Below, piece by piece: positions 1,939-56,800 of a DNA stretch of 64,000 nucleotides; the first letter of the stretch is position 1; the number at the start of each line of letters is the position of its first letter. The notes below the pieces were generated by a model. The model was not told where the DNA came from. It saw nothing but the letters and a program-made list of their open reading frames with translations, and searched no databases. The DNA comes from Xestospongia bergquistia (taxonomy: Eukaryota > Porifera > Demospongiae > Haplosclerida > Petrosiidae): the NCBI GenBank assembly GCA_963965975.1, contig OZ014418.1, positions 7,047,275-7,111,274 on the forward strand, read 5' to 3'. Position numbers and translations under genes: made by a program.

Positions 1939-2336
1939 TGACTAGTTGTTTGACACTGTATAATCAAATCTTAAAACCATGTGCATAAAAATAAAAATAC
2001 ACCTACAACTGTTTTGTTTAAAGACTCAATTAATACTTGATTCTGTTCTTTTTGATAAATTTGGTATATTAGGTTTGTAATATTAATAAATTGATAATAC
2101 ATTGTTTAATTTTTGCTTTGTTTTTTGCTGTGGAAATCATTCAAACTCTTCCTACTGTCCTAAATTTATTAACTAATAATCATAAGAAAGGGTCTGAAGT
2201 AGACACCAAATTTTAATTTTAATCTATTCATAAATGAACACACCCCCTACCATATCTACTAGTCAATATAAACTTTGTACTCAGTCCACCCCCTAAACCA
2301 TACAATGCACCTCCCTCTTTTTACTGTACTAACAAT
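1939..2336. other. Intergenic spacer between CHxTH copy 1 and death-fold gene A
   Basis: AT-rich spacer with several A/T-rich polyadenylation-like runs after 1980. The stretch shortly before 2337 contains CACCCCC-type tracts that are also kept in unit 2 (10500-10633). They may be the promoter region of the death-fold gene. There is no TATA/AP-1 pair like that of the CHxTH genes. Confidence 0.5.
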
Positions 2337-5300: not shown

Positions 5301-5436
5301 TAGTCAAATTATTATTAATAAAATAATAATAGAGTCTATTAAAGGTATATGTATGTACTATTTCTGATATAGTAAAGAAATTAATATTGTCCATGATAAG
5401 GAGGTAATACATCTTTGGACCATTGTTGTAATAGCA

Positions 5437-5468
<32 letters not shown>

Positions 5469-9055: not shown

Positions 9056-10238
9056 ATGGCAGAGAGTCAAGAGACTAATATTTGTAAAGCAAGGTAAGTA
9101 TACACAGACATGTTTGCTAGCAGTCATAATGTAACATTTGTTTTATGATTTTTGTAAATTTTTTAGAAGTATTGCTGGAGCTTATAGTCCAGAAGTACTA
9201 TTTAGACGTTATCATGTTACACATCTTCCGTGTGGAATGTATGCTAAATGGGATGAAATTCCACCTCTTGGTGGTAAAGTTCCCCTTCAAAGGGTTCCTA
9301 TAACAGCAAAATCATTCTGTCATGTAACACATGAGCAACCAGCTAATGAAATTATTCAAAACAACAATGGTAAAACATATTTCATTTTCAAACCAAAATC
9401 AAAACAAGGAAAGCAAAAAGGTGGTGAAACTTATGTAATATGTAATCCTACTGACCAACCTCCAACTGAAGAGACTACATATCGCTATTTGACTTCTGCT
9501 GAAAGAGTATTTCCTGGGTACTATATCTGGTGGTCTATCAACAATGATGACTATTATCCATCATCATATTTAGAGGATTACTATTATTTCAGTCCACCTT
9601 TTACCTCATCATCTCGTTATGGTAATGTCAAGTTCTCAGGCTACATAATGCAACTGCTGCGCTGTTATCAAGAGGCCTATGCTAAAGTTAATCCATTGCC
9701 TCGTATTCAGTTCAGATGCGGAGGTACTTTACGTTACAAGCATGAGATCTGTAAAGTTGTTATAATATGTACTGATGCATACCCTCTACTTGAAGATGAG
9801 TTTCCTAGGATGTGGCAAGGTCATGATATTCGATATGGAAGAGATGGAAAGATAACATTTGTCAGACCTTTAGAAGTTATGATTAGAAATGGAGTATCAG
9901 GAGTCAAAGATCCATACATTCCCTATTCTTGGGATACATATGCCTTTGCTTTTTATTTTCCTGATGACACATATAGGTTAGTATGCCCTACATCAGAAAA
10001 ATTCCGTTACTCAAAGATTGAACATGATGATCTTTGTCATTCCTTACAACCTAATCCAGATGGAAGTGGAAAGTTAGTATGTCCTAATGAATTGTCTTCA
10101 CCATTCAAGTCAGTTTCTTCTTTTCAATGCTCACAATATCCTCGTTGGCTAACTTCCTATGATGACAGCGACAGTGATGAAGATAACTTCATTCCACAAA
10201 AAAGGCAACGAACTAAATACTATAATAGTTGGTATTAA
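9056..10238 (+). CDS. CHxTH-family protein, copy 3 (unknown function)
   Basis: Exons 9056-9093 and 9167-10238 (73-nt intron, phase 2) encode 369 residues, the same length as copy 1. Comparing exon 2 of copies 1 and 3 by eye gives about 18 amino-acid differences. Seven of them are packed into a 16-residue stretch after the VTHLP motif. The rest of the domain, and the acidic DDSDSDE plus KRQRTK tail, are unchanged. Promoter, 5' exon and 3' flank are also near-identical to copy 1, so the pair is recent or gene-converted. Confidence 0.8.
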
Positions 10239-10633
10239 TGACTAGTTGTTTGACACTGTATATTTAAAACTTAAAACCATGTGCATAAAAATAAAATACA
10301 CCTACAACTGTTTTGTTTAAAGACTCAATTAATATTTGATTCTATTCTTTTTGATAACTTTGGCATATTAGGTTTGTAATATTAATAAATTGATAATACA
10401 TTGTTTAATTTTTGCTTTGTTTTTTGCTGTGGAAATTATTCAAACTCTTCCTATTGTCCTAAATTTATTAACTAATAATCATAATAAAGGGTCTGAAGTA
10501 GACACCAAATTTTAATTTTAATCCACTCATAATGAACACACCCCCTACTATAACTACTAGTTAATATAAACTCTGTACTTAGTCCACCCCCTAACCACAC
10601 AATGCACCTCCCTCTTTTTACTATACTAACAAT
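10239..10633. other. Intergenic spacer between CHxTH copy 3 and death-fold gene B
   Basis: Counterpart of 1939-2336 with small indels. No coding potential is seen. Confidence 0.5.
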
Positions 10634-13600: not shown

Positions 13601-15677
13601 TATCTTAAAGAGAACTCCAGATGAACATGATGTACTCAATCTATTAGCTGTTATTGATCACAAGTGGTATGAAATCGGTTTGTCTTTAAAAGTTTTTCGC
13701 CATGTTTTGAATCATCTGAGACTAAGTAGTGAGAGTAATATTGTCAAACTAGATCAAGTCATTCATACCTGGATAATTACTGGGTCGTGTCCTGTTACCT
13801 GGGAGACAGTGATTGTTGCTATTGAGGGTCCTCTTATTAAAAATATAGAAGTAGCTAAAGAAATACGTAAACATTTGGCTAATGCAGAATTGAACTGGCA
13901 ACAAGAAATAGAAGAAACCAGCTGTAAAGAGAAGACTATGGAAGTAGAGTCTATTGCAAAACATCAAGGTATCTATATCTTGTTCCATTATCATGAAATT
14001 ATTGTCTTTTAATTAATGTCTAAACAAGAAGAAAAAATCACATTATTGTCTTCAGAATTAAGTGAGAGAGACAAAGAGGAGCTCAAACTAAGTTCACAAG
14101 GTAACTTCTGGTATATTAGCAGATCATTTTACAATATTTTGTCTTCTTAAACAAAGCTCAAGACTCAGTCTCATCTGATCAAATACTTGAGGAAATCCAA
14201 ATAATATCTAGCCCAGAAACCACTACACCAACTATCAGTGAAGATATAGGTATGTAGAATACAAAATATCAATATTTATTTATAGTTTTATTCAATTAGA
14301 GTTTAAAGATCAATTAACTGATGTTAAAAAGGCAGACAAAGGTAGGCAAGTTATAAATAATCTAAGTCTTATGTATATAATGAATATTTATTAATACATA
14401 AGCCATGTAGATATATGGCAATAGCATCATTTAATATTTTGATCATATCTAGAGGAGTACATTGTCAGTGTATGTTATATAGAGATGATACTACTGCTAT
14501 CTAATATATAAACCCACCCCCTATATTTTGAAGTTAGAAATGGTACCTCTTATTTTTTAGATTTCTTAGAGAAAGAAGATGACAAGACTATTTTTAAAGG
14601 AAGGTGAGTGTATGTACATGAATAACATGATAATGAGATAAATGTTTGTAAAGGTATTTCAGAGAAATTGCTGAAACTAGTTTACATGATTTACCAAATG
14701 GCAAGAAACGTAACACTGAAGTATTATTTAGAAGTTATCATATCACTCATTATCCATGGGGAGAGTGTCATGACTGGGACTCCATACTACAACCATTCAG
14801 ATTTAGTAGTTCTAACTTTGGAGTTCCTCTTCAAGAAGTTCATATAACAGTAGATAAACTGTGTCATATAACACATGAGGTACCTGCCAGAAAAATTTGT
14901 CAAGCAGAGTACTTCAATTTTAAACCTACACACATAGTAGGAATAGCTGGATCACCAATTGGAGAGAGCTATGTTATATGTGATCCTACTAACCAACCAC
15001 CTACTGAAGAAACAGAGTACCGACACGTGAGTTCTGATGAAAATCTATTTCCTGGATGTTACAGCTGGTGGTCTATTGATCATAACCATTATCTTTCACC
15101 ATCATCAAACTATTACTATAGTGACCTTTTCACTTCATTATCTCGTTATGGTAATGTTAAATTCTCAGGCTACATAATTCAACTACTACAATATTACCAA
15201 GAAGCCTATGATGTTGATCCATTACCTCATGTTCAATTCAGATGTGGTGGTACTTTACGTTACAAAAAAGAGATTTGTAAGGTAGTTATAGTATGCACCA
15301 ATACATACCCTCTACCTGAAGATGAGTTCCCTATTATATGGGATGACATTTTATATGACAAAAATGGAAGGGTAGCAGACATCGAACCTTTTAAAGTTGT
15401 AATTAAAAATGGAATATCAGGAGACAGACATATGCCTCTCTTCTATTCTTGGGACACATATGCCTTTGGTTTTTATTTTCCTAACAAGAACTACAGGCTA
15501 CGATGTCCTAAATCTGAAAATTTTGAGCGTTCAGAAGTTGAACACTATGATGAGTCTTGCGTCAAAACACAGCCTGATCCAAACAATGAGAACAAGTTAA
15601 CATGTCCTAACAGGTTTTTAGATGATAGTGAAAGTGATGATGAAGAGGAGTACATTTCTAAGAAGCAACAACAATGA
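10634..15677 (+). CDS. Death-fold gene B: two Death domains, coiled coil and C-terminal CHxTH domain
   Basis: Exons by reading frame: 10634-10757, 10806-10868, 10996-11280, 11332-11613, 11662-12015, 12069-12131, 12181-12228, 12279-12949, 12999-13101, 13483-13539, 13591-13968, 14029-14100, 14157-14249, 14300-14341, 14561-14603, 14663-15677. The joined frame is open for 1,230 residues. The first Death domain is at 10996-11280, two repeated helical modules follow (11332-12015), then an alpha/beta module (12279-12949) and a short coiled coil. A second Death-like domain is in exon 13591-13968 (HKWYEIGLSLKVF, PVTWETVIVAI); gene A lacks it. The C-terminus is CHxTH copy 4. That copy has no TATA/AP-1 promoter and no usable in-frame ATG in its short first exon (14561-14603). 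It fits only as a phase-1 continuation, so the fusion is well supported. The role is probably an intracellular death-fold adaptor or sensor (inference). Confidence 0.75.
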
Positions 15678-16085
15678 TGACATATAGAAGAACTTATTCC
15701 ACAGACCATATTGCTTTAACCTCTTGCTAATATTAACATAATCTATTAAGTGATATTTTTTATAAAAAATTGTATAATCATAAAAAGTGTGGGTGGTACT
15801 TCAACATATACTAAATAAACAATGAGTCACAATCTAAACGATTGGTAAGTCATGGCTAGTGGTTTGACAATACTAAACCTCAAATGTTTATCTAATTATG
15901 TAATGGTTTTCCTTCTATAAATATATCTATGTTATCACGTGATCATATACAGACCAATGTACTATTGGTAGATAATATAGTATAGTATTACTCAGAATGA
16001 CTCATCATAATATCCATCCCATAATACTGTCTATATAAATAGAAGTAGAATCAAACAAACTACTAGATATAAAGAATTGATCATA
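15678..16085. other. Intergenic spacer before CHxTH copy 5
   Basis: Holds the AATAAA at 15814-15819 for gene B and the promoter of copy 5. No gene is seen. Confidence 0.6.
15998..16041 (+). promoter_or_regulatory. AP-1-like site plus TATA box, CHxTH copy 5
   Basis: TGACTCA at 15998-16004 and TATATAAATA at 16032-16041, 45 nt before the ATG at 16086. The motif pair and the sequence between the two sites are almost unchanged from copies 1 and 3. Confidence 0.55.
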
Positions 16086-17356
16086 ATGGCAGAGGGTCAA
16101 GGTATCGTTTGGACTGGAAGGTAAGTATATATATTTCCTAGCAATTGTTTTAAATGATAATTTATGAATTTTTTGTAAATTATTTCAGAAATGTTGCTGA
16201 AAGTTTTAATGCAGAAGTATTATTTAGATGTTATCATCTCACTCATCTTCCATGGAAGGAATACAAAGATTGGGACCACATTCCACTTCTTGGTGGTGTT
16301 AGTGAAGTACCTCTACAACAAGTGCCTATACAAGTAAGAAAACTTTGTCATGTAACACATGAACAAGCTGCAGACAAAATTATTCAAAAGGATCATGACC
16401 AAGATTATTTTATTTTTAAACCTAATCATAAATGTGGAAAAGTACGAGCAATAGGAACAACCTACACTATATGTGAGCCTACTGATCAACCACCTAATGT
16501 TGAGACTACATATCGCTATTTGAGTTCTACTGAAAGAGTTTTTCCTGGGTATTATATCTGGTGGTCTATTGATCATGACAACTACCCACCATCATCTTCA
16601 GAATATTATTTTAGTCATTTTTTCTCTCCTTCATCTCGTTATGGTAACATTAAGTTTTCAGGCAACATCAAGGAATTACTACAATATTATCAAGAAGCTT
16701 ACATTAAAGACAAAGTTAATCCATTGCCTCGTATTCAGTTCAGATGTGGAGGTACTTTACGTTACAAACGAGAAATCTGTAAGATTGTTATGGTATGTAC
16801 TGATGTACACCCTCTACCTGAAGATGAGTTTCCTAGGATGTGGAAAGGTCATGGATTTCGCTACAACAAAGATGGAAAGATAACATTTGTTGAACCTATA
16901 GAAGTTATGATAAGAAATGGAGTATCAGGAGTAAGAGAACCATACTAACCCTACTCTTGGGACACATATACCTTCGCTTTTTATTTTCCTGATGACATAT
17001 ATATGTTAGTATGTCCTACATTGGAAAAATTCAAATGTTCAGAGATTGAACATGATGACCTTTGCCTCGCCTCACAACCAAATCCAAATAGTAGTAGTGG
17101 ATACATTTGTCCCAACAAATTACCTTCACCATATAAATCATTGTCATCATGTACTTCATGTTTGGATTGCTCTATCAAGTCAGTTCCTCTGTTTCAAAGA
17201 ACTCTGTCACCATCACATCCTCAATTTTCTTCATCCTTCATACCTTCAAACATATTTTCCAGTCCAGTATCTAACAACAAAAGTAACAAAGAAGTAACTT
17301 CTCCAACAAAAAAGCAGAGAGTTATGTATGATGATGATGATGATGGTGGTTGGTAA
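16086..17356 (+). pseudogene. CHxTH copy 5, interrupted by one premature stop
   Basis: Exon 1 is 16086-16120, and exon 2 starts at 16189 with the family's phase-2 junction. The frame matches copies 1 and 3 (CHVTHEQAA, FPGYYIWWS, SRYGN, RCGGTLRY) until a TAA at 16946-16948. It replaces the codon that in copies 1 and 3 lies just before PYSWDTYAF. The same frame is then open again to 17356, with a family-like C-terminal region and an Asp-rich end. There is one lesion, no frameshift and an intact promoter. It may be a young pseudogene, a truncated protein of about 265 residues, or a sequencing or allelic difference. The C-terminal region after the stop carries an additional Ser/Cys-rich stretch not seen in the shorter copies. 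Confidence 0.7.
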
Positions 17357-36000: not shown

Positions 36001-39000
36001 CCCTCGTTAGAAGACCATTTGAATTCCCTCTTCAAAATTGTACATGTTGGTCCATTAGCTACAAGTGTTCAATCTTTAGCTCTCCTCTATCAAGTAATGG
36101 AAAAGAGACAGGCAGTATCATCTCGCTATTATAGAGCATTGTATCAAAAGTTAATGGATACACAGCTAAGATTGAGAACAGGACAACAGGTGGGTGTGGT
36201 AATGGGTGGGGTTTTTGATGTTTTATTTTGTTGTAGGCAATGTTTCTCAATCTGTTATACAAATCATTGAAGAGTGATCCCGAATTAAATCGTAACAAGG
36301 TCTTATTGTAACTCATCATTTTAAACTTTCTATTGTGTGTATACTATATAGGCATTTCTCAAACGTATTCTGCAGTCATGTGACTATCACATGCCTCATT
36401 TTGTGTGTGGGTGTCTACTAATCATATCTGAGGTAAACGTACATGTACATATATAGATATTTACGCTTAATATGTATTTTTGTTAAGGTATTGAAGACAA
36501 AACCAGCATTGTGGGCATATATCCTTCAACCAGAAATTGGCAATGAAGAAGAAATATTTCATGATGTTGATGAAACAGAGGAAGAAGAAGAAGCCATTAC
36601 AATGGAGGAGACAACAGCAATAGAGGACATTGTAGAAGGATATCGGATGAAACATCGAGAACCTCTTTATTGTAGAGCGGAAATTTCTTGTCTTTGGGAA
36701 CTAGCGAGGGTATGAAACTTACATTTACATTTTTTACATGGCATTTCTGGCTCCTCCCATTAGCTGACTCATCACTTTCATCCATCTGTTCAAGTATTTG
36801 CAAACAAGATTGCATCGGTAGGTCTTGACGTGATATAAGTCACACCTACTGACCACATCCATAGGGAAATCCTATAACTTATGATGGTGATCCCCTTAAT
36901 GATTTCACAGCAATACAATTTCTAGATCATTTTGTTCACAAGAACCCTAAACAAAAAGTATCAGATCATGGTGGCTCTGTGATGCAGGTTTGTATATGTA
37001 TATATGTGTTATATATATATCCATTTTATTATAGTATGTATCCATTTTATTATAGTATGTGTCCATTTCATTATAGTATGCATCCATTTTATTATAGTAT
37101 GTGTCCATTTCATTATAGTATGTGTCCATTTTATTATAGTATGTGTCCATTTTTATTTGTCCATTAGCCCATTGGGAACCTCCTAAAGACTGAAGTTTAT
37201 ACTTTACCAAGTAAGGATAACATTTTATATTGTAACCATAGTTGCTATGGAAACAGGGTCAATGTCTGATCTTGCAACAATGGATGAAGAAAAAGTTCGG
37301 AAAGATTTATTGTTTATTCACAAGTGAGTGTGTTTGAAGACATTTTTACATTATAATATGTGTGTACATCTTATCTCTCTCTTTTTCAGATTTATGAAAA
37401 GAGACTTTGAAATGAATCGATTGAAATATGATGAAACTATTAAAAAGAAAAGACGACGAAAGAAAGTTACCTCATTGTCAGACGAGGAGGAGGAGGAGAA
37501 AAAGGAGACAAGTGATAATGACAACAATAATGAAGACAATCCTGACTTTGCTGGGTAAAGGGGACATGTCCATATATAATATATTGTATGGAGTATGTCT
37601 AATTGTTATTGTTGTTTTATTTGTGTAGTGAGTTTACTAAGCAGGTTAAAATCAAACAAGAACAAAAGATAAAGGAGAAAAGAAAGAAAAAGAGTGCAAG
37701 AGACAGTGTTGACAATGATGAAGGTAAAATCCGAAACTTTAATTTTTAGTGTTTCCTCTCAGCAGTCAACTCACATTTGTATATCTGTCTGTCTGTCCGT
37801 TGTCTGTCTGTCTGTCTATCTGTCTGTCCGTTACTATATTGTATTTTACAATATATCATTCTTTAGATTTTAGTTACAGTGACATGAGTAGTTCAGACTT
37901 TGAGGAAGATCATGATATATCAGTTGATAATAGCAGTGAAGATGATGATAATAAAGTTGAACACTTTACAACGAAAGAAGATGTTGAGGAAGCACACTTG
38001 GAGAAAATGTTGCTAGAAAATCTTTCCTCATCATCAGAGGATGAAACAGAGACCAGTATTAGTCGTAAACGAGGGAGAGAGAACGAGTTTGATAGTGATA
38101 GGAAAAAGAAAAAGTAAAGTCATAATTGATAATAAAATTGAAGTGGTTATCTTTTGTATTTTAGAATGGATCACTCTTCTGTGTTTGCCTCAGCTGATGA
38201 GGTATTTTTCTGTGTTTATTGTATCATCTACCTCTCTCTTTCTCTTTCTTTCTCTCTCACTCTCTCTCTCTCACACACACACACAGTTTGCTTATCTTCT
38301 TGAAGAGTCTGAAGAAAAGCCTACCACATTTTTGAAAAAGAAAAAAACTGGAGCAAAAGAACAAGGATGGGAGGAGAAAAGAGCATCTGGTTATCATGGC
38401 TGGAGCCAAATAAAAAGAGACTTCCGAGGAAAATCATACAGAAGAGGAACATCGAGAGGTGGATTTAGAGGAAGGGTCAAAGGACTGACTGGAGAAAAAA
38501 TTCAGGGAAGTGGTGGAGGAGGATTTAGAGGGGGATCTCGTGAACGTGGTGGGGGAGGATTTAGAGGAGGAAGTCGTGAACGTGGTGGAGAAGGATTTAG
38601 AGGAGCAAGTCGTGAACATGGTAGGGGAGGATTTAGAGGAGCAAGTCGTGGACGTGGTGGAGGAGGATTTAGAGGAGGAAGTTGTGAACGTGGTAGGGGA
38701 GGATTTAGAGGAGCAAGTCATGGACGTGGTGGAGAAGGATTTAGAGGAGCAAGTCGTGAACATGGTAGGGGAGGATTTAGAGGAGCAAGTCGTGGACGTG
38801 GTGGAGGAGGATTTAGAGGAGCAAGTCGTGGACGTGGTGGAGGAGGATTTAGAGGAGCAAGTCGTGGACGTGGTGGAGGAGGATTTAGAGGAGGAAGTCG
38901 TGGACGTGGTGGAGGAGGATTTAGAGGAGCAAGTCGTGGACGTGGTGGAGGAGGATTTAGAGGAGGAAGTCGTGGACATGGTGGAGGAGGATTTAGAGGA

Positions 39001-39207
39001 GGAAGTCGTGGACGTGGTGGAATAGGATTTAGAGGAGGAACTCATGGCTCTGACAATAAAGGACCCAGAGGGCATAGTCATAGATTTAGAGGGGGATCTC
39101 GTGGACCTGGAGAAAAAAGAGGATTTAGAGGACGTGGTGAAAGTGGATTTAGTAGGGGATCTCATGGTGGTTTTAAAAGAGGATTAAGAGGACGTGGAAG
39201 AGTTTAA
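33002..39207 (+). CDS. CEBPZ: CEBPZ / Noc1 (Mak21) ribosome biogenesis factor with a C-terminal RG-rich tail
   Basis: The first exons are 33002-33052, 33101-33166 and 33549-34181; about 15 more follow. Family landmarks are the acidic/Lys-rich N-terminus, NGVPWFED (about 34160), VKLYQKTREKRKGQHDVQW (34340-34480), ISDILPENRKLKYLKQRP (34910-34970), HEAT-like helices and the CBF domain (35100-36800), HPSVQVFANKI (about 36790) and ASADEFAYLLEE (38180-38305). In yeast, Noc1 pairs with Noc2 in pre-60S assembly and export from the nucleolus. Unusually, the last exon (38287-39207) continues into about 15 repeats of a 12-residue GGFRGASRGRG-type unit. The frame across the last introns is continuous, so the tail belongs to this gene. 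It converges with the next gene, 145 bp away. Confidence 0.9.
33211..33422. repeat. Tandem duplication of a 108-bp intronic segment in CEBPZ
   Basis: The segment starting AAAAGAACTGACATATGC at 33211 is repeated from 33319 with almost no differences. Confidence 0.85.
37021..37155. repeat. 21-bp tandem repeat (about 7 copies) in a CEBPZ intron
   Basis: The unit is TCCATTT(T/C)ATTATAGTATG(T/C), beginning at 37021 and then every 21 bp. The intron runs from 36989 to 37167. Each unit holds an ATTATAG acceptor-like and a GTATGT donor-like string just before the true acceptor CCATTAG at 37161-37167. Confidence 0.85.
38515..39060. repeat. 36-bp coding minisatellite in the last CEBPZ exon
   Basis: About 15 copies of a 36-bp unit (GGAGGATTTAGAGGAG followed by a variable part) encode G-G-F-R-G-(A/G)-S-R-(G/E)-(R/H)-G. 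Internal units are near-identical, which suggests recent expansion. Length differences are always multiples of 3. Confidence 0.92.
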
Positions 39208-39352: not shown

Positions 39353-42300
39353 TTAGTCAGGTAATGGTACAGAGATAGATGAAAATGAACTACAAGATGG
39401 TTCAGTTCCTTGACTGCTTTCTTCAATGACCTTTACTGGGCCCTGCATAAGGGATTGAGCTGTTTTGCCTGGAGAAGAGTCATTAGGTGGTGCATGAGCA
39501 ATAGTGATTGTATATGGGTGTGGTTTTATCTGTTGAGGTGATTGAAGGGGTGTCTCCGATATAGTAAGCTTGGGAGAAGAAGAGGAGGATGTTACTTGGT
39601 TGTCTTGAGAAATGCTATGAACAACTTGGACTCTGATTGTTTCATTTATTACAGGTGATGCAATTTGGGTGTGGCTTAGTTGGGGAACCCCCTTACCACG
39701 AGAGATATTGATGACATCAATACCATCTCTTAGTTCATTTTCAGTAGAGATTGAACGTGGAGTCGTATCCTTGACAACTATATCTCTTTTATTTCTTGAT
39801 TTTCTGTACATTTTCAATTCTAAAGGTACTTCACCATCAGATAATGGGTTCTCAGTTCTCCTTGACCCTTTAATTAAAGGTCGTCTAACTTCTCCAGGGG
39901 AAAGTGATCTATGTTCTATAGTATGAAACTTATTATCGTCATCTAATTCAGTTAGTGAAGGTATTCCAGCTAATGTATTATCAGTGTCTTCATCTTCGTT
40001 GTTGTGTTTAGTAGTAGAGGTATCACTTTCTGGTGTAGATGTGGTTAGTTTGAATAGATATTTATCAAAAACACCACCCCCATCATTAGGAACTCGTTTG
40101 CTTTGTTTTATTCTAGCTTCACCTAAACTGTGTCCCTGAAAAGATGGATGGATGGATAGATAGATAAACAGATGTATAGAAGGATAGACAAATCTTACCT
40201 GACTCCATGATTTCTCAGAGCTATCAGAAGACATGTCTTTAAGGTCAAAGTTAGTCATCATTGGGACTTGAACGGTTGCTATGACAACATGAAGTGTACA
40301 ATCTTTAACCATTACAATATACCTTTACTAACTACATCTTGTTTTGTTTGGAGTAAAATATTCCAATGTACATCTCCTGGTGACATGGGGACCTCCCCTT
40401 CACTACTTGATATATCACCACGTTGCTTAACTAGTCGTTGTAATCTTAGGTTGAAGTAAATACAATGCTACTACATAATAGTCAATACTTGTTGTCATGG
40501 AGACATTGTCCTAGGGACAATTCTTCATCAGTTGTAGTTGATTCACTAATGGATAGTGCTACTGGAAGATGAGTGGTACTTGTAGAGTGGGTGGAGTCAG
40601 AGGTGGAGCTTTCTAAAGGACTGACATTACGTGTAAAATATGTAATGTTATTGTTTAGCATACGCTTTTTTAAGTTGAATGGATGGTTCTTTATGTGATG
40701 TGATGTCAGGTGTTGACACTACCGCACTATGAGAGGGTGTGGCAATGGGTGTGGTTATAGTATCATCAAGTTCGGTTGTGTCTTTGCATGAAGATATCAA
40801 TGGATGAGGGGAAGTGTTGTCAGTTAAAATTGAAGAGCTAGGCTAATAAAATAAAGATAAAATATATGTTTAATACGTCCATCTATTGTCCATCTATAAA
40901 TCCATTTGCCATCCATCCATCCATTCATCTACCTATAGCATAACCAACAATAAAACAATATGTTTCTAACAATGAAATATTCCCAATTTATAACTTATCA
41001 AAGACAAATATGAGATAATATTGTTATGTTTACTAATTATAAACCAAAAAGGTTGCAGACAAAATAGTATTGTTTACAACTGTTAAATGAACCACGTCAC
41101 TTTTAACATGTCATATTATAACAAGGAAATACCATCTTTTACCTCATATTTCTATTGACGTTAATCAGTTACTCAACAATTACTTTAGGTGTTATTGTGG
41201 TATAGGTATGTGTACAATGTTTACATCGACCACATCCTTTTTGTAAAATTACATTAATTGATTTGACAACTAAAAGTTGATATAAGAACTTTCAATATTT
41301 GATAATATACTATAACCTCTTGAAATGAATATCTTACCACAGCAATGTCTGTCAGGTAAACTTTAGACATAATACCATTAGTAAACTCTAAACTAGTGAA
41401 CATACTGACCTAAGATAGCTACCATTAGTAAGCTCTAGACTAGTAAACATCAGTATTTACCACAGTGACCTAGGATAGCTACCATTAGTAAGCTCTAGAC
41501 TAGTAAACATCAGTACTTACCACCGTGAGCTAGGATAGCTACCATTAGTATACTTACTTCAGGTGTACTAATATTATCATCTTTATCAGTGATATTCTCC
41601 AAAATATTTGACAAAGAAGAAACAGGTGTAATCAAAACAGGTTCTGTGGGTGGAGCTTGTTCCATAGGTACTGGGGACTGAGGTGGAGTAGGGTGAGGAG
41701 TTGAGAGGGGTGTGGTTGATGAAACATCAGTTTCAAATGAGGAAAAGTCATAATGACCCTCATCTTCACCATCATATTCCTTTTTGAATTCACTTTTCTC
41801 TTCTTTTTGTAGTAGTAATGTTAGTGTTTCTTGTAGTAAAATATTTCTGACTAATTCTGTTACTGTGACATCCTCAGTATCTGTGGTGTTACAGGAGGAA
41901 GATGCTGTTGGAGATGTAGTGATCGGGTTGTCGTTATTGTCAAGGCTGGCAATCAGATGTGTCATTAGTTCTTGTTGAACCCTGAATGGATGAATGGATA
42001 GAGTAAATGGATGAATGGATAAAGTAAATGGATGAATGGATAGAGTAAATGGATGAATAGAAGGACAGATAGATGCATGATGGACAGATAGATGCATGAT
42101 GGATAGATAGGTGCATGATGGACAGATAGATGGCTACCATTTTTGTGCTTGCTCTTGATATCTTTGTTGGACTCTATTTTCCATTTCAAATGATGAGACA
42201 GGTTTATTCTCATAAGGAGTAAAACAAGATGGTTGCAACAAGGACGTGGGAACAGATTCCTCTTGTGGAGGAGGAGAGGGTTGCCCTTTTAACATAATGC

Positions 42301-44050
42301 AAGGTTGAGATGACAATGAGAGTGAACTGTCGGAGATAGACTGGAGAGAAAAAAGAAATAGTTTGTGAGAATGGATAGAGAGATTGATGAGTTGAACAGA
42401 GAGACAATGAAAGTTATTGTTAGTTTCATTGAGAATGTCTAGACACTAAAAATATTAATTAAGTTTAATTTATTATTTCAATAGAAACAGTGAAAATAAA
42501 ACGTATTACATAAAATAAACAGAGATATTAAAACATTGCATACATGTGTATAGTCCAATGGAAGCAAAATTGGTAAAAATAACAATCATTTTAATGTTTT
42601 GGGACTAAATGATTTGTTACAACAAGGACATGTTATACTTTCTATACTATATAGAACAACTAAGTTACTATAGTGATTTAGTTGTATACAACAATGGGAT
42701 AACAAAGTGTGACTAAGGGAAAAGAACAATATGTCCCAAATGTTCATCAAATAAAGCCCTGGGAGAGATGGATATAATAATTCAGCTGTCTTCTTTCAAT
42801 AAACACATATCGTTATTAATATTGTGTGCCAACTTAGGACTTAGTTTCTATTCAATGTTTGCCCTCAAAAAATTGATATTCAAGGAAATATATACAAATA
42901 TTGAACTAATCTTGTTCTTGTTCTAAATAATATGGGTTTTTGTTTTTGCTATACATATTGTATGGGTATGAGTCTTATATAAGACACTGTTTGGGTATGA
43001 GCCTTATATAAGACATTGTTTGGGTATGAGTCTTATATAAGACATTGTATGGGTATGAGGCTTATATAAGACATTGTTTGGGTATGAGTCTTAAATATAT
43101 ATAATATGGGTATGAGTCTTATAATATAGGTATTAGTCTTGTTATATATGTACATGGTATAGGTTTGAGTCTTGTTATACATGTACAAGGTATGGGTGTG
43201 AGTCTTATAATATAGGTATTAGTCTTGTTATATATGTACATGGTATAGGTTTGAGTCTTGTTATACATGTACAAGGTATGGGTGTGAGTCTTATCATATT
43301 CAATAGTACATGTTGTAAGTTGGATATTCAAAATTATGCTATAATTATATGCAAATTAATTGAAATTGCTGTCATAGTAATTCTAGAATAAAACTGGTTA
43401 TCAAAACAAGTTTGTCCAAATGGCTAAACAATTAACAATAAATACAACTACTAAGAAATTAACTCTTAATTTTGTGAGAATATGTTACAAAGATTCCCTT
43501 CTAATATACGATCCAGACTACGGCAACTCAAAGAAAAATAAGATTAACGAGAACATATTACCATGGTAACAGAGATTCCCAATATTTCTCCTTCTCTATT
43601 ACATTTGCTTAATAAATACATTCAATTCATAGTAATTATGAAGACTATCCAAACAGGAGGTCAATTATACCACTCTCTGAGATCACATGTATCTTATGGT
43701 TAGTTTCACTTTCCTAGGAGAGGGAGGGTTATAGTACAAATATGGTCACGTGACCTCTCCCCCTCAGACTTGTGGAGACATTAGACAAAACTGTAGCAAT
43801 CACTTGTAAGAGTTATAATTATGACAGTCAGGCTATCTGTGATTATAATACTAGTTTGCTAGTTTCATTATTAATATTGCTGGTATGACACTTTATTTTA
43901 ATGACAGCTGGTCATTAACTATTGACTCTCTCTATCCATCTAACTATGTAACTGTATTCATCCATTGATCTGTTTCTTTCATCCATAAATCTATCTATCA
44001 ACCAGTCTGTTTATTAATATATGCATATTAACTAACTTAAGTAAATACCC

Positions 44051-44086
<36 letters not shown>

Positions 44087-44801
44087 ATCCTTTTATCTTG
44101 TACTCCCAAACCATTGCAAAGGAGTGTCTATCAATGACCACAGTACATCAATAAACTATGTTTTATAATACTCCCAGGATAATTCAACATATGTTCACTA
44201 TTATTATCAATGAATAGATCTCCTTTGTGTTGGGGCAGGAACATGTGTACTGTTCTCATACCAGAAACCTATCTTCAAAAGTGAGAGTCTATTAGAGTGT
44301 GGTCTTGTACAGCTGACCTATTAATCTATTTTAATGGTTTCTTGTAATAGTGGCTTTTGTTTTGACAGTAACTAAACTTGTACAGGGATTCATTCATCCA
44401 TCTATCCATCCATCCATCCATCTATCCATCCATCCATCCATCCATCCATCTATCCATCCATCCATTCATCCATCCATCCATCCATTAATCCATCTATCCA
44501 TCCATTCATCCATCTATCCATCCATATATATTTCTAAATATATATTGTTGTCCACATCAAGTAAATTTTTAAAATGATGCTGCTATGGTTACATATGAAA
44601 AATGACATGAAATACATGTGAAATGAGAAGCCATATTTTACAACAATAACAATTCCTTTGTAACATCTAACAACACAAAAATTATGAACACCTACATTAT
44701 ATGTACATATAATAATACATGTATTATTGAATAGAAAGGTTTTGTATTATAAAACAAATGAGGCTAGTTGTTAAATGTGAACATTCTAATATAATCCTAA
44801 G

Positions 44802-44853
<52 letters not shown>

Positions 44854-47800
44854 ACTAACACTAAAAGTGAACAGCTGGAATTACACACGTATCTTTCTAT
44901 ACAAATACCGGTAACCCTGGTTTAACAATACCAATAAACGTTACCGATCATCCCCACATAGTAGTATATGTCTCTGCCCATATCAAATAGCGACCACAAT
45001 GAATTGACACAATAGTAGTTACCATGAAGACATTTTATAATTCATATGGATACGTGTAGTATACCTAATATGATTGTAAATGTTTGTGAGCACGAGTGTA
45101 GTGTTTTCTTGTTGCTATGGCAACTGTGTGACAGAATTGTCTGGTAAGCGTGGTTAGTTGTAAAGAAGAATTCTCTGGTATATATAATAGTGCCATTGAG
45201 TTTTAAAGGAAAGAGGCAGAGTTATTAAGTTATACTAATGAATATCTTTGTAAAATGATAAGTCAGTGTTGTCATATGATTGTATAACTGTAGATAACAA
45301 CAGTGTTGAAATGTACATTATAGAGAAGGCAGGCTTTATAGAGAAATATGTAATTATTGTAAGGGAACTAGTATAACAGAGGATATTAATTTGATCAATT
45401 AAAATATACTTATTTGATATTAAAATATGATATTTTAGTATAATTAGTTATAAATTTGATATAATTACATAAAAACACAACACACACGGACATGGACACA
45501 CACACACACACACTCGGTACACATGTACTTCTGACATATGATATCATAATATTTATTAAATTAACATGGTAATATAGTTTTTTCTTAGTAGTAAGTTAAC
45601 TGTATTCTTTGTGTAATACAATTATTAAAAAACAATTATCATGTTGGTTACATTGAGTAATCACTGTTGAAAACAACTATTAAACTGTTTGTATTTCATT
45701 TTAAATAATTTCCTGGTCTATATCTTTCTAAAGTTTACCTATAATTAATTATTTATTTTCATCTCAGATCAAAGCACACAAATACAGAAGAACAATATTA
45801 CATGTCCTATGTATTATTAATACATTGTTTATTTATTTATATGTAGTTATGTGACTGTACGTGTAGTCTGAAATACATACATCCAGCAGTGCAAAGTCTA
45901 GCCAATAATAAATAATTGTTTATTTTATCACGTATGATCAAAGAGTTAAATATAGTAAGTAATGATATCATACTAAGTAAGGTTTACCAATAACTGGATG
46001 GATCAATGGAGACTTGCTTGAATTAGGAGGCAATGTCTATTAAATCATTTGACCATGGAATGGATAATTATTATTATATTTTTTGAGTCGGTTTAGGTAA
46101 TATTATATCATGTACTAGTGAATTCGATACGCTCATATTCTCATACCAATGCTTATCTTGTCAAAGCCGAGAGCATAATAGTTATGGCAACACTGTTAAT
46201 ACCGACATCAACATAATACACACTTAGTGATAAATAATTTTAAATGTACTTTCCTTTGACTTAAACATTACTAATGTATATTTTTTTCACATTATAACAT
46301 TGTATATTACTCGGACCTTGTAAACAACATTGATGAGCTCAATACATAAGCTTACATAAGCTCTTATAACAATACTTTATACTTAACTAATGTAACTGTC
46401 TTTATAGATAGACTTGTCTTAAATGGATTTCAAGATCTAGGTGAATAGTGGAGTATTTAGAATTGTAAATTATTTAAAAAAGCTGTTAATAGAAAAACAA
46501 AGTTTAAAGTAGTTACAAATAGTTGTTAACAATATGATAACATTTGTATATAACAATTAGTATACTTTGTTGTATTGTTGTTGTTTTTGGTTTATTTGAT
46601 AATATTTCATTTAGAAAATGAAGGTATTTGAAGCGCACAATATATGTTGACAGCTGGTACTTTTTGTGTACATAACAGTGCTTAAAAAATCATTTATACT
46701 AACAAAACAGTTTATATAACACAGGTCAAAAAGTGTAAAATAAATATTTTTAATTTTTATGTGGAGTGTTATCAAGTACTCTGTGTGTGTGTGTGTGTAT
46801 GCACATTTGTATATATCTTTGTGTTATGTAGGTGTCCTCCTTATAAATAAATGTATAATATATAAATTGATGTACTTAAGCAAGAAATTTTCCACAGATG
46901 TAGTTGTAATTAGTGAGTTTAAAATTCCCTTAAATGTCAAGGGACTCATAAATAATTCTAAATATCACTCAATGCATTTCTCGTGTGAATATCATATAAC
47001 ATCTTTTACCACAGTTCAAGCAATTACAAAGGAACCATAATGTGGTAGGCAGGCAGGCAATGTCTAGCCACTAAACCACTGAAAGAGACAGGGGTAGATA
47101 AAAAGGATGATATAACATAAAAATATCTTTGTTATCTTTGAAAGAGATAGGTTCTTAGCCTCTTAGATATTATAAACGGATGAGATATTGTCCATAAAGT
47201 TATTTTAATAGTAACTATTGTTGTAGTATGGCATCATGATTGTAAGTTTAATTAGTGAACAAAATTACATTTTTAAGCTCTACTGGAAAAATGAGTTAGT
47301 TTGTAACACTTTTAAACATAAGAGAATCACGTGATGATGTCAAATGTTTATCAGAAGGAATGTTCAGCTCTCAGTTACTTAAAAATTGTTTTTTTAAAAA
47401 AATCTGTTTGATCTTGTGATAAGATCCTATTGACCTGATGATATTAGAATTTTAACACAAAGAGTTCACACTTTTAATATTTTAGAAATTTGTGTAGCCT
47501 TATTTAGCCTTGATGATCATTACCTCAGACAAGATCAGAGAGACCTTGAAATGAAATATGACGTAATCAATCAAGAAAAATGTTTAATTAACAGCTGCAA
47601 TACTAAAAAAGGATCTGTTTATTGAAATGATAATATCAATTGTGGACATATTAGTCAGCTGTTTAGTGTTTCAATATTTACATTGTAACAAAGGATTACT
47701 ATTAAAAGTACTTACATAGAATTAATATACGATAGGTATCATCTTCCGGTATAATATTTGAAACTATTTTAAAAAATGCCATTTCTCAAAAATGCTAGCT

Positions 47801-50267
47801 ATTTTTTATTGCATAACATACAGTTATGCATTCATATTTATGATACTTCTAATATAACACTCAGTAACCACAAATCATTCTACTTTCCATAGTATCTTTT
47901 GTCTGGAATATTACTCTATCTGCCTCCGGTGTCCAAAGGATAACCTGAGTAGGACACCCCCCTCTCTCTCCCTCTGTCTTTTCTCTCACCCACAGAGAAA
48001 GCTTTTGTAAATGCATTATGTAATAGTCCATATTTTCCTCCCACATTGTTGACACATAATTAGCAGTGAAATTAACAGCTGCTATAATAGTATTATAGGA
48101 AGTATGTGAAGTGTGTAATTTTATCTGGTTGTTGAAGAAAATGATTTTTGTGTTGTAATTCTAACCAATTTTATTGAGGTCACTGTGGTAAGTATTGATT
48201 ACACCCAATGGCTTATGTTTGCTACCACTAGACTAGTGAACATCAGTACTTACCACAGTGACCTAGGATAGCTACCATTAGTAAGCTCTAGACTAGTGAA
48301 CATCAGTACTTACCACAGTGACCTAGGATAGCTACTATTAGTAAGCTCTAAACTAGTAAACATCAGTACTAACCACAGTGATCTAGGATAGCTACCATTA
48401 GTAAGCTCTAGACTAGTGAACATCAGTACTTACCACAGTGACCTAGGATAGCTACTATTAGTAAGCTCTAAACTAGTAAACATCAGTACTTACCACAGTG
48501 ACCTAGGATAGCTACCATTAGTAAGCTCTAGACTAGTGAAAACCAGTACTTACCACAGTGACTTAGGATAGCTACCATTAGTAAGCTCTAGACTAGTGAA
48601 CATCAGTACTTACCACAGTGAGTTAGGATAACTACCATTAGTAAGCTCTAGACTAGTAAACATCAGTACTTACCACAGTGACTTAGGATAACTACCACTA
48701 GTAAGCTCTAGACTAATAAACATCAGTACTTAACAAATACAGGTGAACAGTTAGTATTAGTTAGTAATTACCCCAAGGCAAATTATCCTGCCATAAATAC
48801 TATCATTCACTAATCCATGATAAGTACTAAAATTCCTTAGTCTACATTTTACTATATAATGATTACAATATCTTCTAATATGGACCTACTAAAAAGCATC
48901 ATTTCATAATAGTTTACTACAATATAATAGAGTACAACCTTCCTTAGTTGTACATAATTTGATTAATTATAAAAATTACCCAAGAAGACACTAGACTAGA
49001 CATTACTTTGATGTAGAGAAGTGACCTAAGAAATGAATTATTAACATCTTATGAGAGAGTAGTTGTGGGATAAAATTCCCCTTTACAGAAATCAAAGGGC
49101 ACAAGATATAATGAATTAATACACAGACAGGAAGGAATACATGTCACACACCAGTTACATTATTAACTATTTGCCTGTCTGCCCATTCATCCATTTTATC
49201 TATCCATTCATCAATTCATCTGTCCATTCACTAACCCATTCATCAATTCATCTGTCCATTTACTAACCCATTCATCCATTCATCAATTCATCTGTCCATT
49301 CACTAACCCATTTATCAATTCATCTGTCCATTCACTAATCCATTCATCAATTCACTTATCACTTACTTCTATTTTATCATCTTTATCTTCAGTGCTACTC
49401 ATAGGTGATGTTGCCATGGTAACAACATTACTAGATTCAATATTGATTGATGGTAGATACTGTAATTATAAAGAAACAGTCAAATATATTGTATGTATGT
49501 TGATATAAAGTAACATAATGATGACCAAGGATAGGTACCATTAAGAATTGATGCCCGCAAAGTGGTAGCTATCCCTAGTCACTGTGGTAAGTACTGATGT
49601 TCACTAGTCTAGAGCTCACTAATGATAGCTATCTTAAGCCACTGTGGTAAGTACTGATGTTCAAGGCATATTAAATGTTATTTTAAGAGTGGTTAACTGG
49701 TATATTATAATATCCCCTGACTTAACTCTACTCAACCCTACTTCACACGCATTATAAACACCTATAGCCCACCTCGTTCTCACAACACCATTTGACCTAT
49801 GTCCGACCTTAATCAATGAATAAGCTAAAACAATCAACAAGGTAGAGTACCTTTAAGGTAGTATCTAATTACTATTATCACTGTTATGGACACTTCCTGT
49901 TGCATGCCTGAGCAGACCAAGGTGATGAATGTTGTAATTGTTTGTACTGATGTCTGAGGTCAGAGTTTAGTTATTAATCACTTCAAACCGGTCACATGCT
50001 TTAGGTGATTACCCATCATATGTAATTAATAACATTATCGGGTCACAAGACAGGTTTGTAAACTAGTTTATACATCAGGTCTCTCAATGTAATTATATTT
50101 ATAGCGAGCAATTTAAACTGGTTTTAATTTCATTCCATTGTAGAACAAACAATTGTGCAATATAATTGTTATCATGATTAACAGAATAAGCCACTAACAC
50201 AGAAAACTTAGTAATTAGTTATTCATTACATAATTTATTATATTTCATAAACTATTATAACAAATCA

Positions 50268-50307
<40 letters not shown>

Positions 50308-50759
50308 CCATGGGTTGTTGTATTGTGCTATTATATTTAGTCAATTATCATATTATAAGCAAGACATTAGATCATAATGACATCATGTGGTCTTAACAGG
50401 AGACAGTGATAATATATAGATGCACAGTCATAGTTACTATTAATGATTTCATATTTAACACCTTTATATTATCTCATAAACCACTTCCTCTATTAATAAA
50501 GGGACTTTATCCTTTTAAAAAAAGGTCAGCTCAGGAAGTCATTACTTACATGCTATCAATAATGTTCCAAAATATCACAGATCTGATAAGTGATTTAACT
50601 CATTGTGGCATGCAGGAAGATTTTTGTCAAGATAAATATAATAGGACATTATATTTATCTGTGGTTTGTTCTAGTTTATATTTAAAAGAGCATCTTTAAT
50701 TAGTAATATTGACATTCATTATATTACATCTAAGAAATATCCCCCTCTCTCTCTATATA

Positions 50760-50790
<31 letters not shown>

Positions 50791-52416
50791 ATTCCATCAA
50801 TCTATTCAACCATTGATTCGCTTCTATTGACTTAACACATCGAGGTTTTGTTTCAGGAACAAAGACCAATATTATTAACATATTGCAACAGTTACATTAC
50901 ATCAATATTATATTCCTCTATATAATGTATTATATTAACTGGTACAATATTATTAATATACTACAACAGTTACATCAATATTATATTCCTCTATATAATG
51001 TATTATATTAACTGATACAATATTATTAATATACTACAACAGTTACATTACATCAATATTATATTCCTCTATATAATGTATTATATTAACTGATACAATA
51101 TTATAATATATTATAATATATGTGATCTAGTGAATCCATATAAAAAATATATAAAATCAACAAACAAGACATTTTGGGACATAATTATTGTCATAATAAA
51201 CTGAGCCTGCACTCTTCCCATATCATGGGCCAAGGTCGCAAATTTGGCAGCCGAAATACATAAAAGAATATTAGTTATATTAATTTGTATTGAGTGCCAG
51301 TTATGTAACCTGTAATAAAACTTGTATTGTTTGGTGTTAAGAGTTGTAGCATCACAACTTTTCTGTCTTCTCAGTGGTAACATATTGAAAGTGAAACTGT
51401 CTGTACTTGTATCCTGTAATCTTAATTAATTGAACCCTAACTATATCATGACAGAATAGTATAAGCTTTAATCTAATTTTATGGGCTCTGTGATGAGTTT
51501 TGAAAGGATTGTTGTATAGATATGTTAATCAATATTAGACGATTTGTTTAACATATATAGTAAGTGATAGCAGTGACAATTGAATTAGCAATGTTCTTCT
51601 AATTGGAGGGAATTTTTTACAAAAAGCATTTGTGTGTATTTATAATAATATAGTAAGGTTGTTTAATATGATATTTAAGCATGTAAATAATGCTTTAATT
51701 AACATTTTTGTAATAATTCAACTATTTGTGGTTGCGTTGAAACAAGATTGACCAAGAGTTAGTATAAATCATAAGAACAGATTACTAAAAAAACTAAAGT
51801 CAATATGACTACATATTATAAGATACATGCTCTCCTGATATAGTTGATGAATAATAGGAAACAACTTTTAAAAGCCAAACCAGATATCAGATCACTACAA
51901 TCTAATTTTATTTGATGTCATAGTAAAAGTCAGAGAGATAAACTGATCTTAGTATTAGTTAATCAAAGCTGGGGTTTTTTCCTTTCCTTCTTATTGGCGT
52001 ACAATGTACAACAGATAACTTATGATCTATAAATGACTGGTATGTCTATGTGTAATAGTAAATATTGTAAAGGTTCTTTGTACTCAAAAATCGTTTCCTT
52101 GACCATTATTTGATATCGTACTGTATTACAATTTTGTATTGATCATATAATATTTAAGTGTTTGTAGTATTATGTCTTTAGAAAATGTTAGAAAACAGTC
52201 CCTTTGTTATCTATTGACTAATAAAGATATATCAAATATCATATTATAAGGTCAAAGTTAACTTCCTCTGATTATAGTCATGATGTAACAATTCTTACAG
52301 TCACTTAGGCTCCATGAATACTGGTATGTTACATAGTCTGCCTATAATTATCATAACAATTACATGTAGTCAAAGCCTCTCTCTCTCTCTCTCTCTCTCC
52401 CTCTCCCTCCCTTCCT

Positions 52417-52481
<65 letters not shown>

Positions 52482-53780
52482 AACTTCACTCAATCTAGTC
52501 AGAAACAAACATTACATAACAATAACAACAAATAAGACATGTAATCAGTACATGTAATTTTACCAACGTACATCCTTTATCCTCTTTTCCTAGAAAATAA
52601 TGTTTCCTCTTGATTTAAAAATACCTGGTATTCATAATAATAGCAAGAACACATCATCTGTTGATACAAGTACATACTAATTTCTAAACACATTCTAAAA
52701 TTCCCTCCACTAAAAATGAATAAAACTCCATTACCAATTAATATAATAGTTTAATAACAAATTTAATATGCAGCATTTCTCAGTATATGTCCTAACATTG
52801 ATTAATAACATCCTGTTCATTATAAAGCCATTCAGCCTGGTCTTTGTCTTAGTATTTCTTGGCAAACCAAACAATTTATTTCATCATCTATTGTATTTCC
52901 AATTCCTCTTTTTATTAGAGTAACTTTCTTTAAGGAGAATTGCTTGTTTACAAGAATATATTATAACAGATGATCTTATGACCTTCATGTGTCATATAAA
53001 ATTAAAATGTTAGGTAGTATGAGATAAGACTTACCTTTGAAACAACACTAAATAGTACTTGACTTAATTTATAGGCAATGTAATGCAGCTGTTATATATT
53101 ATACATGACAAGTAAAACTGTGATACTTTTAACAAACAAGTGATTAATTACAAGAAGTGTTGACAATAAAAGTTTCCTATAGATTGGTTTTAAATTACCT
53201 CCATAAATATCAGTTTCAGTATAATAATGAATCAAATTTTCCAGTAAAACAGCTTCAGTCTGACCCCAAGAAGTCATGAATATTGTTTATTGTTTCTGAA
53301 AATAGTGCAACTCAAATTACACTCTACAAACACTGCAGTGTCTTAATGACTTCATCAGTATGCTATGCAGTACAGTTTATACAAATAGTGACACTGTAAT
53401 ACTAAGAGTCCTCTCAACACACAATAATACACAATCTTATATCATAGAAGTCCCATACTAAATACATTGTGGTCACAATATACCAATATTCATACTTAGT
53501 AAACAGATCACTGCTTACATTCTTATATTTCAATACAATCCCATGGAAGAGGTGAGTAAAGAATAGATAAACTCTTAAACCCACCTTAAACCCAAACTCC
53601 CAAGGGAGGGTCTGACCACCCAAAGACTTGTTTTTTATCAAGTTCTCATTGGTCCAAATGAAAATAATCACACATGCTCATAGAATTCTGTCTCTATGGT
53701 ATATCTAAACTGTATACACAGGCCAATTTAACATGTGAATAGGCTATTGTACATGATAATTGATGATGATAAATAGATTA

Positions 53781-53836
<56 letters not shown>

Positions 53837-56800
53837 ATACTCTATCAGTAACTCTAAGAAATAATACTATAAATTTAAAAGATAATTTTCACTTTTACAA
53901 ATAATAGATCATTGCCTTGGATTCTCCTGTCACTGTACTGTGTATTACTGAAACATTAATACACTAAACAATTACTAATATAAGTACAACATATAGTACT
54001 AACATTTCTATATGTAATATTTAATATACAACATTTAAATCAATATGACCATGCAGTACTCCTAATGGGACAGTGTTTATTCATTGGATGTAGAGTGTGT
54101 GAACTAGGATTGTTACACTGTGTATAAATGATTATTAAGTATTATATTCATTCAGTGTAAGGTAGAACCATTCACAAGTTTAAAGGATATCTACTAGCAA
54201 TATAACACAATGGTTAGTACACTCCCTCTCTTCCATTCAAAAGGTTGTAATTACTATAATATGGTCATCTATCTCATTGATCAGTTGTTAGGAAGTGAAG
54301 CTAATTCAATTGAAAATTGCATTCTATAATGGCACCATTAGTCTAGTTAACCTACCACAGTGACTTAGGATAGCTACCATTAGTAAGCTCTAAACTAGTA
54401 AACATCAGTACTTACCACAGTGACCTAGGATAGCTACCATTAGTAAGCTCTAGACTAGTGAACATCAGTACTTACCACAGTGACCTAGGATAGCTACCAT
54501 TAGTAAGCTCTAGACCAGTAAACATTAGTACTTACCACAGTGACCTAAGATAGCTACCATTAGTAAGCTCTAGACTAGTAAACATCAATACTTACCACAG
54601 TGACTTAGGATAGCTACCATTAGTAAGCTCTAGACTAGTAAACATCAATACTTACCACAGTGACTTAGGATAGCTACCATTAGTAAGCTCTAGACTAGTG
54701 AACATCAGTACTTACCACAGTGACCTAGGATAACTACCATTAGTAAGCTCTAGACCAGTAAACATTAGTACTTACCACAGTGACCTAAGATAGCTACCAT
54801 TAGTAAGCTCTAGACTAGTAAATATCAATACTTACCACAGTGACTTAGGATAGCTATCATTAGTAAGCTCTAGACTAGTGAACATCAGTACTTACCACAG
54901 TGACTACCATGATTAGTAAGCATAGTGACCTAATGACCTTATTGGAATAACCACTAAGATTATTAATACCACTAATACCACAAAATACTACCTCATCTTA
55001 ACATGTGCTCAAGTTGGTTTCAAGGTAAAACAAGGAGTGGATATATAAACAAACTATGAGTGTACCTGACACTACCACTATCAGCAAGGCAAAGTATAGT
55101 ATTAACCACAACACATAGCAATATAATTATCAAATGAACTATAAACTGTCCTCTACAGTACAGTACTGTACTCCACAGTACTGTGCTCTGCAGTATTGTA
55201 TTATACTGTATTGTACTGTACTGTACTGTAGAGTAGAATTCAAAGGATGGTTAAGACATTTGTTTATATATCTCTATTCACCTTATCTGTATAAGAGTTG
55301 AAAGGGGAAATTATGGGCAGAGTCATTTTACCATCGGAGGAGGAACTATATGTCTTATAAGACGTTAAAACAACTTTATTAGGAGATGATATTGAGGCTA
55401 CAAATATGCCCACAGACAAAACCATAATCTATTCCACCTGTGTTTGCATTGGTTGTTGGTTTTAAAAAAGGGATAATGTGATTTTTTAAATTTAAATGGA
55501 GAAACAAGGCAAAAAGACACATACCAGTTACATAGTCTGACAGCTACAAAATGAATATTGTTGAGTTAGTCATCATCAATGAATTTTGTTAAGGCCAGCT
55601 GGACAACCAAAGAGAGAATGCTTAACAAGCACCCAAAATATTTCCCAAATATTAATTGGAACTTAATATGCTTTGGAGTTGAATCAAGTATTATAATTAA
55701 TTAAGCATATTATAGTCTACTTTCACTCTAATTAGCAAAATATGATTCAATTTCTTTCATAGGCAGCCATACCAGGCTAGATTCGAGGGGGGGAGTTTAT
55801 TAATAGGCTTTTCTCAGACCACACCGGAAAAGAGGGCTTGCTCTTAGCCTGCGGATTCCTTTCAGCTGCTGTTGTTTACCAAAAAAAACCTTTGCACTTT
55901 CAGGAAGTCTTACCAAAAGTTCATATGAGATATTCTCCTTTTAAGTTGCCGAAAAGAGAGGATGCAGGGCAGATGCCATAATGTTTTAGTAAAAACATTT
56001 TATGTCCTTTTATTAATGATCTAATCCAGGTGCAGTGAGGGTATAGGTTATAATACACAGTAACATTCAGTAATGTCACTAACATGTAGGTATGTATACC
56101 ACAACAATGCTGATGTCATCTGAATGTTATATGATCCTCCATTCATTGTACATACTTTGTCACATCTTGACATAGTGTAGATTAAAGCTTGGTCTAATGA
56201 CTACAACATATACACTTGAGTTGATTCTGATGTTATTATAAAGCCATATTCCTTTTTTAATATAGAAACTCAGTTACAACCAGTCACTTAATATTAGATT
56301 CTACTAATAAACACTTAGCATATTAAGAGTTGTAAGTTTATAAGCACCTCTACCTGTGGATTAGTAGGCATGCCATGTAATACAATTATAACCAATAGTA
56401 CCAGCTGTTACTAAAAGGAATGCATTAATTTGTAGAAAAGACAAACAAAGACAAGTTAGCTTGATCTATCTAAAAGATTCTCCTGTAAATTTAACGTACT
56501 CTAACACAATTTAACAGAATTTAACAACAACACTTATGTCAAAAAATCTTTGAAATGCTATAACAGGATATTTTCATAACATAAGACCTCATTCAAAAGC
56601 TATTATAATTTAAACACATTTAAATATCTTCTAACATGTTAAAGGTACTTTTCTATCATAAGTCTTCCTTCTTATTTACAATGGACTAATATTCCCTGAA
56701 TTAACACGAACCACAAAATTCAAATCACTCTTAGCCATACAAACGCTAAAATGAAGCCAAAAAGTGCATTTCACAATGAATAGGGAGTTCACCAACGCTA

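Follow-up and report, generated by a model that had tools for sequence, protein, structure and literature searches.

A 60-bp minisatellite with intron-like motifs, probably dispersed among chromosome ends, in the genome of Xestospongia bergquistia

A dispersed minisatellite family

The window analyzed here, a 64,000-nucleotide stretch of the Xestospongia bergquistia genome (assembly GCA_963965975.1, contig OZ014418.1, positions 7,047,275 to 7,111,274 of the forward strand), contains four arrays of a 60-bp unit that carries motifs reminiscent of a minimal intron. The unit's minus-strand sequence runs GTAAGT...TTACTAATGG...CTATCCTAG, followed by GTCACTGTG, and its consensus is GTAAGTACTGATGTT[T/C]ACTAGTCTAGAGCTTACTAATGGTAGCTATCCTAGGTCACTGTG. 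We conclude that this unit probably represents a young, dispersed minisatellite, enriched near chromosome ends, presumably copied by DNA repair and tolerated in introns, and that its likeness to an intron is one that selection does not clearly maintain.

The genome searched spans 146.46 Mb and 21 contigs, of which 15 are long (5.4-28.2 Mb). A 29-base core of the unit, with up to two mismatches allowed, returned at least 1,725 matches, versus 0 for the reversed control, and the family is seen on 13 of these 15 contigs. For detailed comparison, 92 overlapping loci were reduced to 39 genomic stretches (two of which overlap by 781 bp), the others duplicating arrays already included, and joined with three stretches of the window; this sample of 42 stretches is non-random, since the best DNA matches and exact variant patterns supplied its members. 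It yielded 47 head-to-tail arrays scoring at least 50, which range from about 1.4 to at least 26 units and contain 307 full units. Among the 40 arrays of at least two units, mean unit difference was 4.36 of 60 positions across chromosomes and 3.33 of 60 within an array, and this low divergence between chromosomes indicates that the spread was recent or that exchange is frequent. A literature search, to which most subscription papers were out of reach, found no work on this 60-bp repeat.

Such recurrence across contigs bears directly on the idea, put forward in an earlier note on this window, that the arrays are intron-end sequence amplified by slippage. That account has each array arise independently, from the end of its own intron. 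The tandem structure and the unit-length variants do show that slippage or unequal exchange takes place, but a single 60-bp consensus on so many long contigs makes independent origin not credible and calls for dispersal in addition, as the same note had argued from one inverted locus. Slippage as the sole process is thus refuted and, as an explanation on its own, extremely improbable, while it retains a role in the explanation we prefer. Arrays related to those of the window, at other loci, have periods of 44, 50, 51, 59 and 61 bp, and at locus L043 (1344-1719) a 44-bp variant with its middle deleted is tandemly repeated beside 60-bp copies.

Within the window, the unit and its motifs are present at all four places where they had been reported: array 1 (41406-41550, minus strand, 2.4 units), array 2 (48228-48735, minus strand, 8.5 units), array 3 (49563-49661, plus strand, 1.6 units) and array 4 (54350-54904, minus strand, 9.2 units). 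The repetition is not exact, as had been stated, since loci 1, 2 and 4 show 95, 93 and 93% matches, respectively, in the Tandem Repeats Finder (TRF) output; locus 3 is missing from the TRF list. Array 1 is bordered by a truncated unit that reaches 41557 and by decayed copies that extend down to about 41373. The inverted orientation of array 3 is confirmed, and inverted fragments of the unit also adjoin array 2 (23 bp, 48177-48199, plus strand) and array 3 itself (49522-49543, minus strand, a weak match with score 17). All four loci had been taken as intronic; the reading frame bears this out for locus 1, and loci 2-4 may be either intronic or intergenic, the coding signal being very weak from about 42.4 to 57.1 kb, with three segments scoring 4.8-5.8 outside exons.

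Enrichment near chromosome ends

The distribution of the family was assessed with seven complete pattern lists, in which 157 matches define 78 distinct loci, on the assumption that the 15 long contigs represent whole chromosomes. Fifty-five of the 78 loci lie less than 1 Mb from a contig end (21% expected) and 73 less than 2 Mb (41% expected), the five others being located on contigs C2, C3 and C11. When loci were merged at 500 kb, 24 of 26 still fell within 2 Mb of an end. The two largest contigs, C1 and C2, account for a single locus of the 78, where 30% would be expected, and none lies on C13 or C15. Exact core matches are listed at three places on C2 and two on C1, one of the latter being a 6-kb array (C1:9200291-9206077) deep within this largest contig, about 9.2 Mb from its end. 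The scarcity on C1, C2, C13 and C15 is not explained by distance from chromosome ends alone.

A second dispersed family, with an unrelated 58-bp unit, was identified through 315 exact 84-base matches and forms arrays at L053 (114-695 and 2377-3035), L076 (123-901) and L071 (41-265). Its positions, known completely for C1-C5, include none on C1 or C2, and all 27 loci on C3-C5 are less than 2.8 Mb from an end. The 58-bp family also occurs at the ends of C6 among the matches listed. On C3-C5 it comes within 5 kb of 6 of the 55 known 60-bp loci, versus 1.2 after local shifts (p 0.0005). Because an unrelated family occupies the same chromosome-end zones, the distribution seems to reflect a compartment of the genome rather than any intron-like property of the 60-bp unit. 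Zones common to two unrelated minisatellites offer a lead on how repeats spread in a compact genome.

Edges and strand do not follow an intron

A different reading of the unit, as an introner-like element or a chain of recursively spliced mini-introns, holds that each copy is, or descends from, an inserting and spliced 51-nt intron. Mobile introns would make units bounded by GTAAGT or CCTAG common. Genome-wide, exact edge patterns, which would miss diverged solitary copies, returned two matches for the 3' side, one for the 5' side (L041) and three for a control edge inside the unit; at least one of the two 3'-side matches lies inside an array (L077). The phases at which arrays begin and end fit a uniform distribution (45 starts, p 0.48; 47 ends, p 0.32), so that array edges vary where the intron reading calls for units bounded as introns.

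Orientation relative to genes was examined with a codon-usage score for coding segments within 600 bp of the 47 arrays, using a threshold, calibrated with the first model version only, of 3 false segments per 300 kb. Automatic assignment gave 10 sense and 11 antisense arrays, 2 with conflicting segments and 24 without a segment, and correction by hand, based on Pfam and reading frames, resulted in 15 sense versus 11 antisense (p 0.56). Seven arrays are flanked on either side, within 900 bp, by coding segments of the same strand; five of these arrays are antisense and two sense. Of ten coding flanks compared with Pfam, eight reach the family cut-off. Two are RNase P p29 exons at L001, between which the array lies on the sense strand of the gene, and the others come one each from L007, L008, L041, L042, L065 and L072. 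The flank at L078 has a kinase match below the cut-off, and the coding flank at L002 has no Pfam match. The earlier note had listed the lack of a bias to coding-strand orientation among the observations that would refute its reading, and on this point of its list a lack of bias is what the curated counts (15:11, of 47 arrays) display.

Unit conservation and chance occurrence of the motifs

Conservation of the motifs points the same way. GT and AG are kept in register in 264 of the 307 units, a mid-table value among the 60 rotations of the unit (median 268.5), 32 of which score higher. Substitutions fall mostly on G and C, affecting on average 6.4% of units at G and 7.3% at C, versus 1.2% at A/T positions other than position 16. 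The acceptor G51 is changed in 8.8% of units, compared with the 6.4% for all G, and variation in the acceptor TAG equals its base-matched expectation (3.0% vs 3.0%). Intact GT..AG pairs are found in 90 of 109 units of sense arrays and in 62 of 71 units of antisense arrays (p 0.53). The 44-bp variant at L043 would in turn imply an intron of 35 nt.

The co-occurrence of the motifs counts in favor of the intron reading. GTAAGT, TACTAA and YAG at intron spacing, on either strand, arose in 0.6% of dinucleotide shuffles under the strict definition, in 3.5% and 10.7% under two looser ones, and in 32.5% under the loosest. Among 37 other tandem-repeat rows, some of which overlap and at least one of which is a diverged row of the 60-bp family itself, 1, 0, 0 and 5 satisfy the four motif sets from strict to loose. 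The combination is therefore unlikely by chance and suggestive, yet not strong, this being one unit chosen by eye among many repeats. Together with the exon edge at L041 described below, which is in phase with the following exon, and a donor and branch that vary a little less than expected, it constitutes the case for an introner-like element. Against this case stand the use of both strands, the uniform edge phases, the near absence of units bounded by GTAAGT and CCTAG, and a GT..AG register that is not clearly conserved; we thus regard as very improbable both the introner-like element and the recursively spliced mini-introns proposed in the earlier note, with neither a strand bias nor a contrast between sense and antisense arrays in GT..AG integrity being seen. 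A repeat unit that resembles an intron can look convincing when a single window is considered, yet fail when edges, strand and conservation are tested across the genome.

Exon edges and possible repeat-derived donors

At L041, the end of an exon encoding ...LASLLVHLEMRK (C2 domain, Pfam) coincides exactly with the start of unit 1, where a putative intron opens at base 1504; its acceptor lies on the downstream side of the array, and the reading frame is kept into the following exon (ANEDEDLYC...). Here the GTAAGT of the unit appears to be a real 5' splice site. This is the only exact coincidence between an exon edge and a unit found genome-wide with the exact 5' edge pattern. Native donors often read GTAAGT, and an array may therefore have joined a native donor at L041 through microhomology at this motif. 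At L042, the array edge shows GTAAAT followed by diverged sequence, and this candidate donor may be a native one lying beside the array.

Array 1 of the window presents a comparable situation. By reading frame, it lies in an intron of 715 nt (40843-41557, minus strand, phase 0): an exon ending ...DNISTPE at 41558 continues in phase 0 as PSSSILTDN... from 40842, and the upstream exon has a weak match to TALPID3 (E 0.002, below the family cut-off). The inferred donor of this exon, GTAAGT (41552-41557, minus strand), stands at the array edge, so that the reading frame at 41557 bears out the earlier observation of a real exon's donor opening straight into a unit, with L041 as the better case. The unit at this edge is cut after seven bases (GTAAGTA, then phase 31), for which reason a native donor is equally likely, and the 41557 donor may be either native or unit-derived.

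Considered together, L041 and locus 1 would support only an array that supplies a donor, and not units that are themselves introns. A stronger version makes the repeat a splice-competent minisatellite, whose arrays, caught at GTAAGT microhomology, would replace native 5' splice sites near chromosome ends, which we consider quite unlikely. Were it correct, genes near chromosome ends would depend on a repeat unit for splicing, as at L041 and perhaps at 41557, and donors inside sense arrays might be used recursively or alternatively, in a manner varying with repeat number. An exon whose donor appears to be a repeat unit is a concrete meeting of repeat spread and splicing.

Flanking sequences and mode of dispersal

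A flank-to-flank BLAST comparison covering roughly 1.5 kb of flank in the 42 stretches produced 143 rows, 142 of which fall in a tandem repeat in one or both of the flanks; the remaining row is a 50-bp match located hundreds of bases from either array. No flanking element common to the loci was found in this comparison. These data bear on another possible origin, in which a non-autonomous transposon of Helitron-like or foldback type contains the arrays as its internal tandem portion and spreads them by transposition. Transposons that carry or seed tandem repeats are a known phenomenon: Helitrons occur with minisatellites, and the foldback element Tetris of Drosophila virilis is reportedly linked with tandem repeats. 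The wide and recent spread of the family and the inverted unit fragments beside some arrays would fit such a carrier. It is nonetheless unlikely, given that the flank matches are almost all tandem repeats, that edge phases vary without a clear target-site duplication, and that two units folded as single-stranded DNA do no better than shuffles (z 0.95).

Under the preferred reading of a repair-copied minisatellite, segments of existing arrays would be copied to new places by DNA repair, mainly among chromosome-end regions, either through template switching or through capture, at breaks, of excised and possibly circular repeat DNA. Slippage or unequal exchange would then lengthen and shorten each array, the arrays would be tolerated in introns and other non-coding sequence, and an array landing at an exon edge would occasionally supply a donor.

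Several observations weigh against this reading. The mechanism of copying is one that we infer, and the flank comparison is limited to 42 stretches, in which decayed edges could hide a carrier. In 45 arrays examined for target-site duplications, the mean word shared by the two flanks is 3.84, versus 3.60 when shuffled (p 0.053), a borderline excess perhaps due in part to unit remnants in both flanks. Array starts at phases 59-3 number 6 of 45, versus 3.75 expected, and at L041 a unit stands at a real exon edge. Variation is 2.4% at the donor, slightly lower than the base-matched expectation of 3.0%, and 1.2% at the branch-like TACTAAT, where 2.1% is expected; both deficits lean toward the intron reading of the earlier note, but they are small. 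Neighboring arrays also resemble each other slightly more than distant arrays do (permutation p 0.085). Purely local dispersal was considered as well and rejected, since array similarity shows only a weak trend with distance.

Relationship to described repeats and introns

Introns are reportedly gained by tandem duplication as well, a process in which AGGT is said to play a role. The junction between units, CTAG/GT, likewise creates potential splice pairs, but the 60-bp repeat is a dispersed non-coding family and not the duplicated coding segment of one gene. With Introners, as characterized in the available text of PMC9860276, the family shares the presence of intron-like sequence at many gene loci. 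Introners are described there as introns bounded at or near splice sites, whereas the present units are tandem, seldom bounded by splice motifs, and sit in both orientations inside larger introns; some Introner families are also described as lacking target-site duplications (PMC9860276).

The closest described cases, going by the accessible portions of the sources, are the TCAST arrays of Tribolium castaneum and the human variable number tandem repeats (VNTRs) enriched at chromosome ends. TCAST forms satellite-like arrays dispersed in euchromatin, many of them in introns, for which extrachromosomal circles have been proposed as the copying route (PMC3411249, PMC5844308). Like the 60-bp family, it consists of short tandem-repeat pieces or arrays scattered in euchromatin and often within introns, with no common flanking sequence reported in those portions and with families whose distributions are mutually correlated. 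It differs in deriving from a major pericentromeric satellite and in the prevalence of single repeats (PMC3411249, PMC5844308), whereas here multi-unit arrays concentrate near chromosome ends, and the 6-kb array on C1 is the one larger candidate source known. Human VNTRs with units longer than 15 bp are, similarly, strongly enriched near chromosome ends, with many inside genes (PMC7608644). They are, however, GC-rich (>60%) and comprise many unrelated units (PMC7608644), in contrast to the two AT-rich families that each occupy many loci here.

Other features of the window

No Rfam family reaches its gathering score in the window, and a bacterial-code tRNA scan of it returned no tRNA. A 36-bp repeat of 14.8 copies (38506-39037, plus strand) lies in frame in an open reading frame (ORF) of 396 residues, where it encodes a glycine/arginine-rich run. 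At 829-17356 (plus strand), long related ORFs (369, 367, 341, 341 and 264 residues) alternate with two others, 359 and 354 residues long; the 359-residue ORF has a Death domain match, and the cluster looks like a local gene family.

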